Shown here in pieces: positions 15,963 through 21,700 of a stretch of DNA of 46,889 bases (the first letter of the stretch is position 1; the number at the start of each line of letters is the position of its first letter). Where the stretch lies: contig JBBEBG010000002.1 in NCBI GenBank assembly GCA_040882465.1, positions 1 to 46,889 of the forward strand, given 5' to 3'. Both the position numbers and the translations under genes were made by a program. This DNA is from Gemmatimonadota bacterium (GTDB taxonomy: Bacteria > Gemmatimonadota > Gemmatimonadetes > Longimicrobiales > Gaopeijiaceae). Under the pieces are notes generated by a model. That model did not search any database. It had not been told where the DNA came from and saw only the letters and a program-made list of their open reading frames with translations.

Positions 15963-18518
15963 TCACCCGCATTCGCTGTACCCACAGACGTGGCACTTCA
16001 CGCACCCTTCCTCGTACGCGAGCTGGCCGGTACCACACTCGGGGCAGCTCCCGAGGTAGGACTGGTCCATTTGGGCCGCCATTCGCGTCGAGCCGGCCTC
16101 CGGGCGGGTCCCCGAAGCGGTCCCGACCGGCGCGGGACTGAGGATCGAGAGCTCCTCCTGCACTCCTTCGCGCTCGGCGAGGTACCGCTCGATGGCCTGC
16201 GCGACCGCGTCCGGCGCCGAGAGGACCTTGTTGGGCCCGATCCCCACGGCGCGGTCGCAAGAGATCCCCCGGAGCTGATCCCGCACGGCCGTGATCGGAA
16301 TCCCCGAGCGAAGGGCGAGCGACGCGAGACGGCCGATCGCCTCCGTGTCCGCCATCGCCGCGCCCCCGGCCTTTCCGAGTGTGCAGAAGACCTCGAAGGC
16401 ACGGCCGCTCTCGTCCTCGTTGATCGTGACGTAGAGATCGCCGAGGGGGGAGTTCATCTTGACCGTGCGCCCGCGGAGCATTTCCGGACGCTGCCGCTTG
16501 TGCCGTCCCGCGCGTGCCTCCTCGTCCCGCTCCTCTCGCTCCCGCCGGGACCGCTCCAGGTCCACCCGGAGGCGATGCGCCTCTTCGCGCGCATCCGCCA
16601 GCTGGCTCTCGAGGGCCGCCCTCTCCCGATCCGCGACTTCGCTTTTCCCCGTTTTCCCCGTCGAGAGGACCTGCATCGGGCGCGAGCCGTCGCGATAGAC
16701 GGTCACGCCCTTGCATCCGAGGCGGAAGGCGAGCTCGTAAATCTCACGCACGTCCTTCTCGGTCGCCTCGTTCGAGAAATTCGTGGTTTTCGAGATCGCG
16801 CTGTCCGTATGATCCTGAAAGGCGGCCTGCATCCGGACGTGCCACTCCGGCGCGATGTCGTGCGAGGTCACGAAGACGCGCTGCAGCTCTTCCGGGACCT
16901 CTTCGAAGTGGATGTGTCCCTCCGAAGCGATCCGCTCCATCAACTCGTCGGAATACCACCCCCCTTCCTTGGCGAGCCGCACGAAATCTTCATTGACGTC
17001 GGGCATCAAGGCCCCCGCCTGATTCCGCATGAAGGCAACGGCGAAGAGAGGTTCGATTCCGCCCGAGCACCCCGCGAAAATCGAGATCGTCCCCGTGGGC
17101 GCCACCGTCGTCAGGTTGCAGTTCCGGAGGCGGCGCTGCGGGCGAATCCGCGACCCGTCGTCGCGGCGCGCGCAGGTCGGGTCGGGGCCCCAGATGGACC
17201 CTTCCCAGGCCGGGAAGACCCCGCGGCTCTCGGCGAGCCGCTCCGAGGCAAGGCGGGACTGCTCGTTGACGAACTCCATGACTTCCCGCGCCATGTCCAC
17301 CCCGTCTTCCGAATCGTAGGGGACGCCTACGCGGACCAGGAGATCCGCCCACCCCATCACCCCGAGCCCCACCCGCCGGATCTCCTGCGCGAGCCGGGTG
17401 ATCTGCTCGAGCGGATACCGATTCGCGTCAATCACGTTGTCCAGGAAGTGGACGGAGAGATGCACCACCCGCGCGAGCGCGCTCCAGTCCACCTTCCCCG
17501 CGGGATCGTCGAAGCGTTCCGCGTCGGCACGAACGAACTTGCCGACATTGATGCTCCCCAGGTTGCAGACATCGTAGGGAAGGAGCGGCTGCTCTCCGCA
17601 CGGGTTCGTCGCTTCGTACGATCCGAGGTGCGGCACCGGGTTGAATTCGTTCGCGCGGTCGATGAAGAAGACGCCGGGTTCTCCCGTCTTCCAGGCCCCG
17701 TGGACGATCAGGCCGAAGATCTCACGGGCGTTTTCGCTCCCGAAGACCTTTCCGGAACGCGGGCTCACTAGGTCGTATTCGCTGTCGTTGCGAACCGCCT
17801 CCATGAACTCGTCCGTGATCGCGACGGAGATGTTGAAGTTCGTGATCTGAGACGTGTCGTCCTTGCAGGTGATGAAGGCACGAATGTCGGGGTGGTCGAC
17901 CCTCAGGATCCCCATATTCGCCCCGCGGCGCGTTCCTCCCTGCTTCACGACTTCCGTCGAGGCGTCATAGAGGCGCATGAAGGAGACCGGCCCCGACGCG
18001 ACCCCCATCGTGGAGCGGACGGTGTCCCCCGCCGGACGGATCCTCGAAAATGAGAAGCCGGTGCCACCGCCGGACTGATGAACCAGCGCCATTGCCTTCA
18101 GTGTGTCGTAAATCCCGCTCTCTCCGTTCGAGAGCGCGTCGTCGACCGGGAGCACGAAACAGGCGGAAAGTTGTCCGAGTGGGCGCCCCGCGTTCATCAG
18201 GGTAGGGGAGTTGGGCTCGAACTTCCCCGTGGTCATGAGGTCGTAAAACTGCCGAGCGAGCTCCTCCACCGCGGCCGGCGAAGCGCCGAAGTCGCGGTCC
18301 TCTTCGGCGACGACCCGCGCCACGCGCCAGAACATCGTTTCGGGCGCTTCGGTCGGGTTCCCTTCCTCGTCCTTCGTCAGGTATCGGCGCGCCAGCACGA
18401 GCCGGGCGTTTTCCGTGAATTCGGCGACCGGCAGGTCGTCGGGAATGCGCCCGGCGGCGAGGAGACCGTCGGATGCGGTGCGGGACTCCGGGGTGAACGG
18501 CATGGTACGGGACTCCAT
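15963..18518 (-). CDS. nrdJ: Adenosylcobalamin-dependent (class II) ribonucleotide reductase
   Basis: The 851-residue enzyme reduces ribonucleotides to deoxyribonucleotides using a B12-derived thiyl radical, with or without oxygen. An N-terminal helical domain leads into the ten-stranded barrel: the redox Cys in [10 protein letters not shown] (C120), the thiyl-radical motif NPCGEQ (C307) and the [14 protein letters not shown] block. A charged coiled-coil linker (about 625-680) precedes a TSCPD-type domain ([13 protein letters not shown]...). The C-terminus has a Cys-rich tail ([17 protein letters not shown]) that likely shuttles reducing equivalents. An alternative start, MPFTPES at 18503, has GGAG nine bases upstream and may be the true one. 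The promoter at 18707-18735 carries two NrdR-like boxes. Confidence 0.95.
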
Positions 18519-18682
18519 TCGGTGAAAGACTTTCCGGCGGGCCTCGCTTCCACCGCCGACACCTCGTCCACGCCGTGGAGGATGGTGTGGGAATTACGTG
18601 GAAAAGAACCCCTGGGTCCGTGGAAAAGCTCCCGGACCCGCGACCCACGACGAACATTTGTGTGGAGAGCCTACGGCTGCCG

Positions 18683-18698
18683 ACACGAAATGTCGTTG
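18683..18698 (-). promoter_or_regulatory. Candidate NrdR box 2
   Basis: The 16-mer ACACGAAATGTCGTTG (plus-strand reading) matches about 10 of 16 positions of the general NrdR consensus aCaCwAtATaTwGtGt and contains the inverted repeat CGACA/TGTCG shifted by two bases. It lies exactly 31 bases from box 1, about three helical turns, the spacing usual for paired NrdR boxes, and falls just downstream of the predicted transcription start. Confidence 0.55.
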
Positions 18699-18706
18699 CA
18701 GGGTCC

Positions 18707-18735
18707 ACAATACCCCACGACATATAGTGGGTCAA
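18707..18735 (-). promoter_or_regulatory. Sigma-70-type promoter of nrdJ
   Basis: On the minus strand TTGACC (18730-18735) and TATTGT (18707-18712) are separated by exactly 17 bases. Matches are 5 of 6 to the -35 and 4 of 6 to the -10 consensus. Transcription would start near 18700, leaving a leader of about 180 bases before nrdJ. The spacer holds candidate NrdR box 1. Confidence 0.7.
18714..18729 (-). promoter_or_regulatory. Candidate NrdR box 1
   Basis: The 16-mer CCACGACATATAGTGG is a near palindrome matching 12 of 16 positions of the NrdR consensus aCaCwAtATaTwGtGt. It fills the spacer between the -35 and -10 hexamers, so a bound repressor would block RNA polymerase. NrdR senses dATP/ATP and represses ribonucleotide reductase genes in many bacteria. 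The nrdR gene itself is not in this window. Confidence 0.65.
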
Positions 18736-18755: not shown

Positions 18756-21700
18756 CTAAAACGACCATCCTGCGCGAAAATACGCCGTCGGCTGGGGCGA
18801 AGATTCAAGCGGGAGAGCGGTTCCCAGGCGGATTCGGTCGAGCCCTTCCCAGAAAAACGCCGCCGAAAAGACGACCTCGGCGCCCACGGAAGCGACGGTT
18901 TCCCAACTCGTTCCCCCCCCGTCGCCGGCGGTCCGGGCCCCACCCGCGTCGAAGAAGACCCCGGCGGCGACGCGGTCGAGGTAGGCTGGCCAGGATCCCA
19001 GCCCCCGATTCACGATTCCGAGGGGAAAACGCCACTCGGCGGAGGCCGACCAGGCCTGGTCCCCCCGAAGCCCGCCGGAGTCGTGCCCCCGAACCGAGAA
19101 GAAACGGGAAATTCCCCCCACAGAAAACTGTCCGGTTCCGGTCCCCGGGCCCTCCGCGCCCCCCCCCGCGAGGCGAAGCGCCAGGACCTGGTTCGCGTAC
19201 CCGGGCCCCGCCAGGGGACGAAAGAGCTGCCCCGAGACGACCGCCTCGCGAAATCCTCCGTCGGCGCCGGCGTCCCCCGACAGGCTGTCGGGAACGGAGT
19301 GGTCCCACCGCTCCCGGAGCGAGAGGGTGGCCCTCGCACCGGACTCCGTCGAAACCGAGAAGGGGTGGGAGCGTGCCGTCGAGAAGGAGAGGGCCACGCG
19401 CGCCTCGATCAGATCGGACTCGGGGCGGACAAAGCCGTAGCGCCCGCTCTCGGCGCCGTCGAGCTCGAAAAGACGGCGTTCGGTCGAGACGAGACGGGCA
19501 CCGAGCGTGAGCGAGACGGAGCGCCGAACGCCCTGGCGGCGAAGCTCGGCCGCGACCCCGTAATGCCGCTCGCGCAAAATGGGGAGGAGCGAATCCACCG
19601 GCTCGCCTTCCTCGTGCGGAACGCGGACCAATGCCTGTGCATCCCACTCCTGGCCGGTCTCGAACGACAGCACGGGGTTTCCGAGTCCGGCCCACCGATA
19701 GCGGGCGTTCCACTCCACCCGGGTCTCTTCTCGCGAGAAGAGTGCCGCGATCCAGGCGGAATAACCGTGCCGCTCGAGGAGGTCGGTTCCCGAGGTCTCG
19801 ATCCCCCATCCCTCCCGGAGGACGCGCCGATCGGCCACGCGTTCCTCCTCCCGATAGATCGGAAGCCAGTAACGGGGAAGGAGGGTGGGGAAAGAGGAAT
19901 AGCGGACCGGCGCGGCCGTGGCCGGCGGCCCCGACGCGGCGCCGGGCGACGGCTCCCCGGGCCCCAGGGCGAATCGGTCGAGCTCAGGGAGGGGGGTGAA
20001 CCATCCCTCCGGATCGAAGGGGACTCGCGCCAGCTCCCACCCCTCCTCCCAGAGTACGGAGAGGTAGATCCAGTCCCCCGCCGGATCCACTGCCGGAAAG
20101 GTGCCCGCTGTGAGAAGGTCGGTGATCTGGCGGGGCTCTCCGGGCGCCCCGCTCCCTTCCCCGAAAATGACCCCGTAGAGATTGGCGACCCCGGACCGGT
20201 CCGAGCCCCAGAGGAGCGCGCTCCCATCGGGCGCCCACGCCGGTGCCGTGTTCAGGCTCCGATCCTCCACGACCAAATGGAGGAGCGCCCCCTCGGTGTC
20301 GAGGACGAGGACCGCGCTCATCCCTCCCGGCCGCCTGCGGATCACCGCGAGCCGGTCTCCCGTGGGGGACCAGGCGGGAAAGCTCCAGTAGACGCCCGGT
20401 TCCGATTCGCGAAGGCTTCGAAGGAAAGCGCCCTCGTTGGATAGGAGCGCGAGCCGCGTCGTTCCTTCGCCCCCGAGGACCGCCGCGATCGGTCCCTCTC
20501 CGGGATGGGGATCCGCGTGAATGACACGCATGCCGCTCGTCACCCGCGTCACCTCCCCGGAAAGCGTCACCTCGTAGAGGTCGCGCTGGATCCGGTACCG
20601 GTCCATGAATTCGGCGTCGGGGAGGAGAAGAGTCCCCTGGCGGGTCCATCGCGGCGGGGCAGGCGCTCCGTTCCAGCGCGTCAGTGTCCGCTCTCCCTCG
20701 GCGGTCCGGAGGACGAGGCGGGGGTCGCTCCGTCCGTCGTCGCGGAGATAGGCGACTCCTCGCCCGCCCGGGTGTGGTGCCGCGTGAAAGGCTTCGCGCG
20801 CCCCCTCCGTCAGAATCTCCACGGAAGGGAGAGTGTGTCGGGTCGTCCTCGACTCGAGTGCGAACGCCTCCTCGACCACCTCCGCCATCCAGTCGGTCCA
20901 GAGCCCCGTGAAGGAGGCCCCGAAGGCCACTCGCGCGGCGGCGTCGAGCCGGTAGGGGATCCACTGGTCCGCGGCCTCCCGGAGGAAAAGCGCCACGGCC
21001 CCGGCGCCGTGTCGCTCGGCGAGGAAGTCGAAGAAGAGGGAGCCGTAGACGTAGGGTCTCTCTCCTCCCGGCCAGATCGGGGATGCGCTGAGCCCGGTCG
21101 AAAGGGGTTCCGGGCCGGCGCCGATGACCCGCGCTCGCACGACGGCATCGAAGAGAGTGCCGTGCGCTCTCCCCGCGAGCGTATACCGCGACTCGAGCTC
21201 GACGGCGACTCCTTCGATGGCGAGCTGGGGAAGAGTGTACCCGGCGAAATACGGCCATCGGAGCGACGGCCGGCCGAAGAGGCTGCGGAGCGCGCGGCCG
21301 AGCCTCCCGGTGTAATCGAGCTGGAAGACGTGCGCCACCTCGTGCGTGATCACCAGCTCCAGCCACTCGTCGAAGTGGGAGAGCGCGAGCCCATCGAGGG
21401 GCGGATGCACCCAGATCGTGATTCGGCTCGAGGGGGTGACGCGCGCGAATCCGTTCGAGAAGTCGGTGTGATCCGTCAGGAGGAGGTCAATCGGTCCGGC
21501 CGGCGCGGGGAAGAAGCTCCCGATCAGGAGGGCGTGGGCGCGCTCCGCGGTCGCGGCGGCGCGGGGGACGAGGGCGCCGAGTCCCTCGGGATAGGTGATT
21601 CGGAAGTGCTCGGTCCGAAGAGTGAAGTAGTCGAGATCCGGGGGAGGAGCCTGCGCCGCGGCGGGGAAGGCCGCCATGAGCGTCCACGCGAACCGGAAAA

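Follow-up and report, generated by a model that had tools for sequence, protein, structure and literature searches.

A predicted NrdR operator at the promoter of nrdJ, the class II ribonucleotide reductase gene of a Gemmatimonadota bacterium

The window (the whole stretch of 46,889 nucleotides that was analysed) carries nrdJ on its minus strand at 15963..18518, identified by family models as encoding an adenosylcobalamin-dependent (class II) ribonucleotide reductase (RNR) of 851 aa. The protein scores 1144 bits against NCBIfam PRK08665 (cut-off 961) and 701 bits against TIGR02504 (cut-off 400), both of them class II family models. Its Pfam domains are the barrel, the all-alpha domain and TSCPD, and the Pfam domain search detected no ATP-cone. 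Within the 99.6%-complete genome, nrdJ is the only match to PF02867, the RNR barrel.

Upstream of nrdJ, another reading frame ends at 18756, and 20 bases past its stop codon lies the -35 element TTGACC (18735-18730, minus strand), followed after a 17-base spacer by the -10 element TATTGT (18712-18707, minus strand), a promoter pattern shared with aligned relatives. This TTGACC-17-TATTGT promoter with an NrdR box in its spacer, noted in the preliminary description, was recovered on the minus strand at 18735-18707. Boxes were scored over 16 positions against ACACWATATATWGTGT, which we take to be the NrdR box consensus. Box 1, CCACTATATGTCGTGG (18730-18715, minus strand), overlaps the last base of TTGACC, is conserved in relatives and agrees with the consensus at 12/16 positions, the same value on rescoring as first reported. 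Box 2, CAACGACATTTCGTGT (18698-18683, minus strand), agrees at 10/16 and has a matching box in relatives; it would lie at about the transcription start predicted from the sequence. The minus-strand order is therefore TTGACC, box 1, TATTGT (between both boxes), box 2, a 164-base leader and nrdJ, whose first in-frame start is 18518, 164 bases after box 2. The preliminary description was right that the boxes are paired, but the distance of 31 bases that it gave does not hold: scored by consensus, the boxes are 32 bases apart from start to start, corresponding to a 16-bp spacer, and a distance of 31 bases scores no more than 4/16. Excerpts of PMC12051234 give a spacer rule of 14-17 (or 24-27) bp for NrdR boxes, with 15-16 bp the commonest and 15-17 bp the most tightly bound, and excerpts of that paper and of PMC9110341 report that NrdR binding is best when the box centres are separated by an integer number of helix turns.

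The repression by NrdR anticipated in the preliminary description presupposes an nrdR gene, and a full one was found on another contig (C36), encoding a 165-aa protein in which both the Zn ribbon and the ATP-cone score above their Pfam cut-offs. It lies away from nrdJ, adjoining a tatC-like gene (named by eye). The protein matches five solved NrdR sequences (best E 1.1e-33) and has, at the same positions, the DNA-contact residues R12, D15, R17, R26-29 and R37 reported for Streptomyces coelicolor NrdR (PMC9110341). Autoregulation of nrdR was considered and rejected, there being no box pair upstream of nrdR.

Several results argue that the box pair is no chance match. Box 1 is the sole 12/16 site in the 46.9-kb window, where eight positions in total score at least 10, and at every gap examined (14-17, 25 and 26) no pair in the window sums above the 22 reached here. 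None of 2000 dinucleotide shuffles of the 400-base region reached this sum. A 55-column sequence model, R1, was built from 24 relatives of the same layout with the window excluded, and its search of the whole 3.53-Mb genome returned a single site, the nrdJ operator (E 1.8e-4; E-values are rough), with no second match at E <= 10; the genome-wide search proposed earlier thus pointed to nrdJ only. It might be argued that only box 1 is functional and that this strain's box 2 has decayed, leaving NrdR control weak or lost, as the modest score of box 2 would suggest; moreover, the 23.4 bits of the window are the lowest R1 score among matches with E < 1e-3, the others being training-set members or L055. 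Yet the spacing of 16 is kept and the GTG half of box 2 is intact, clear box 2 sites occur in the nearest relatives (the counterpart in L004 is CAACAATATTTTGTGG), and, given box 1, the window counts lead one to expect a 10/16 site at either allowed gap about 3 times in 10,000. Decay of box 2 is accordingly improbable as an account of a site that otherwise reads as an NrdR operator.

To place this operator among related sequences, 80 nrdJ loci were taken from a scan, the majority under the title Gemmatimonadota, a synonym of it or one of its subgroups, and nrdR was found in the genomes of 37/80 (30/40 and 7/40), L062 being scored as positive on two weak partial matches. Five loci with too little upstream DNA (L014, L018, L027, L047 and L076) were excluded from pair scoring and from the tree contrasts. 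Among the 75 loci with enough upstream DNA, a pair score of at least 19 was reached in 29/33 nrdR-positive relatives and 0/42 nrdR-negative ones, which bears out the expectation that relatives keep the boxes ahead of nrdJ; independent losses are few in the tree, however, so that such co-occurrence counts overstate the statistics and are not independent evidence. The same score was reached in 0/75 within-gene controls. The nrdR-positive rows under the threshold are L010, L013, L055 and L062, of which the first three are matched by R1 (L010 and L013 belong to its training set). R1 misses L008, L012, L015, L031, L058 and L080, in which the score detects box pairs but the promoter layout differs.

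It should be noted that R1 spans both promoter and boxes; its spread is therefore no proof of the boxes alone, whereas the pair score is computed from the boxes only. This overlap, together with the position of box 1 almost wholly inside a promoter that is itself conserved (TTGAC and TANNNT at spacing 17 in 23/25 aligned promoters, those of the 24 relatives and the window), lends some plausibility to the view that only the promoter is under constraint and that the palindrome is a by-product of the -35/-10 region to which no repressor binds. We regard this as very unlikely, since box 2, though outside the -35/-10 region, is kept at 15-16 bp, and L031, L039, L058 and L080 retain box pairs without the TTGACC arrangement. 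Furthermore, the box-only score splits nrdR-positive from nrdR-negative loci, yet the latter also show -35/-10-like promoters by eye.

In the tree of 76 NrdJ proteins there is a single deep split, on which the co-occurrence figures largely rest, along with isolated cases; the tree yields three independent nrdR contrasts, on which a sign test was not significant (median p 0.5). One of the isolated cases is L005, close to the window by NrdJ and nested among nrdR-positive rows, which has neither nrdR nor boxes, its genome being a MAG that may be incomplete. That co-occurrence follows few independent events would also suit palindromes bound by another regulator that was co-inherited with nrdR by chance, an explanation that strains belief given that the sequence fits the NrdR box, the spacing fits the NrdR rule and the gene belongs to the NrdR target class.

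The NrdR operator was further surveyed in 295 genomes of the phylum, requested at a completeness of at least 90%. NrdR was found in 133/295, counting G361, whose match is under the family cut-off, and 113/295 carried the operator: both were present in 112 genomes, the operator only in one (G138, which gave no NrdR match), NrdR only in 21 and neither in 161. The 21/133 NrdR-positive genomes that gave no operator match should be read with the stricter filters of the operator search in mind. One sister lineage lacks both NrdR and the boxes. When 30 best-match operator loci from other genomes were examined, 30/30 held nrdJ. At two loci, L100 and L102, the NrdJ match stops at residue 307 though the locus continues, as if nrdJ were interrupted by an insertion such as an intein. 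Three examined genomes of one family (f7) carry two or three separate operator-like sites each; besides those of nrdJ, these are at L117 1125 and 6481, L118 4363 and L120 3909 (all minus strand), the last of which lies ahead of a 446-aa frame distinct from nrdJ.

Taken together, the genome encodes NrdR and holds, overlapping an RNR promoter, two 16-bp boxes (box 2 weak) separated by a 16-bp spacer, an arrangement that is conserved with NrdR and absent without it, though over few independent events. On the promoter, the boxes, their spacing and conservation, the NrdR gene with its domains and the single genomic site, all drawn from sequence, the site is very probably the NrdR operator of nrdJ, at which NrdR loaded with dATP and ATP is predicted to bind and repress. 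Excerpts of PMC9110341 report that for S. coelicolor NrdR to bind DNA dATP alone is not enough and ATP (or ADP) must be present too, and that NrdR with dATP plus ATP is a tetramer requiring both boxes, as excerpts of PMC12051234 also report. By analogy, at high dATP, NrdR carrying dATP plus ATP would form a tetramer gripping both boxes at once, box 1 between the -35 and -10 elements and box 2 roughly where transcription is predicted to start. The tetramer would bend the DNA and cover the promoter, with the -10 element in the bent DNA between the boxes, so that RNA polymerase would be excluded and nrdJ repressed; a drop in dATP would lead NrdR to release the operator. With nrdJ as the sole RNR large-subunit match and no ATP-cone in its product, dATP feedback on dNTP supply in this organism probably acts mainly through NrdR.

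NrdR control of nrdJ is already known from Streptomyces, and the present site is a clean, well-conserved further example. As far as excerpts of PMC9110341 describe it, the S. coelicolor nrdRJ promoter resembles the one here in combining an NrdR with Zn ribbon and ATP-cone, the same DNA-contact residues, two boxes and a class II RNR. It differs in that nrdR and then nrdJ form one transcription unit, whereas nrdR here lies elsewhere, and in that nrdAB is a second NrdR target, whereas nrdJ here is the only RNR barrel match. The nrdDG operator of Listeria monocytogenes, according to excerpts of PMC12051234, likewise has a pair with a 16-bp spacer overlapping the RNA polymerase site; however, it serves a class III RNR in another phylum, and in the present promoter box 1 occupies the -35/-10 spacer while box 2 comes after the -10 element. 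These data place predicted NrdR control of the B12-dependent RNR in Gemmatimonadota, and a literature search found no paper naming NrdR in Gemmatimonadota or Gemmatimonadetes, or clearly on RNR there. An apparently single NrdR operator at the only RNR barrel gene would also offer a simple setting in which to measure NrdR feedback.

Behind the operator, the nrdJ leader (18519-18682, minus strand) and the leaders of relatives contain one-way direct repeats of the form TTTTCCACA/G. In the window these are CTCTCCACA at 18661..18669 and TTTTCCACG at 18619..18627 and again at 18597..18605 (all minus strand), which are DnaA-box-like and are offered as a lead only. Across 32 leaders (5354 bases), TTTCCAC occurs 49 times forward and twice in reverse, the forward copies being spread over 21/32 leaders, and it occurs 0 times in equal stretches inside genes of 31 relatives. 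Genome-wide, TTTTCCACR matched 44 times and its backwards control 35 times, levels so close that the motif is informative only at nrdJ. Excerpts of PMC8203912 report that DnaA regulates nrdAB in Escherichia coli, an RNR gene that has DnaA boxes in its promoter region; the repeats here, by contrast, are DnaA-box-like, lie downstream of the promoter and share one orientation, a feature also compatible with an RNA element. The match to the dnaA domain starts some 500 bases from the end of a contig, where no such boxes were seen, and a search for oriC covered six stretches at chromosome ends, none of which held dnaA. A riboswitch in the leader was rejected, the window giving one sub-threshold and irrelevant Rfam match and 14 related loci giving none at gathering score. 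A conserved leader RNA was likewise rejected as too weak, the evidence being one short hairpin for which two small alignments (7 and 6 sequences) show some two-sided changes. The leaders of L010, L013, L021 and L024 show a hairpin and then a T-run between repeats, with weak covariation, possibly an attenuator.

As for a replacement of NrdR in the sister lineage, substitution by another ATP-cone protein was rejected, as ATP-cone matches occur in only 3/43 NrdR-less genomes. One of these lies in a 373-aa frame (L085 1027-2148, minus strand) whose start is nucleoside deoxyribosyltransferase-like by eye, and the other two fall in open frames 883 and 887 aa long. A different motif, TTTGTGATG, stands upstream of nrdJ in 20/42 NrdR-less relatives and 0 times in controls. 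The pattern TTYGTGATGTKVRWA was found 35 times in 26/42 NrdR-less genomes, mostly at one or two sites per genome, against two matches for the backwards control and four in 38 other genomes (37 NrdR-positive and that of L005). Among 30 of these loci that were examined, nine hold nrdJ, 17 precede an RpoD-like sigma frame (for instance L128 1501-1515, ahead of an ORF at 1633-2523, in the set L125-L154) and four show neither, while the remaining five matches are identical in letters to the sites before nrdJ in L030, L034, L049, L060 and L068. The 17 sigma frames look like one RpoD-like factor, and the one tested scored above the sigma-70 superfamily cut-off and below the RpoD cut-offs.

We tentatively propose, while considering it somewhat doubtful, that RNR control has been rewired within Gemmatimonadota. 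The NrdR-less lineage, lacking operators, would hold nrdJ under TTYGTGATGTKVRWA, a partly DnaA-box-like sequence common to nrdJ and one main other gene, that of the RpoD-like sigma factor, and the NrdR lineage would add the one-way TTTTCCACA array behind its operator. If true, dNTP supply and transcription capacity would be set by one signal in the NrdR-less lineage. This possible rewiring is a more novel thread than the operator itself. In 11/42 nrdR-negative loci, a second, inverted half-site lies upstream of nrdJ, 60-61 bases downstream of the first (L053, L061, L063, L064, L066, L067, L069, L070, L071, L074 and L077); these half-sites resemble TTCGTGAT and ATCACGAA, each with at most one change, and the second falls inside the apparent promoter.
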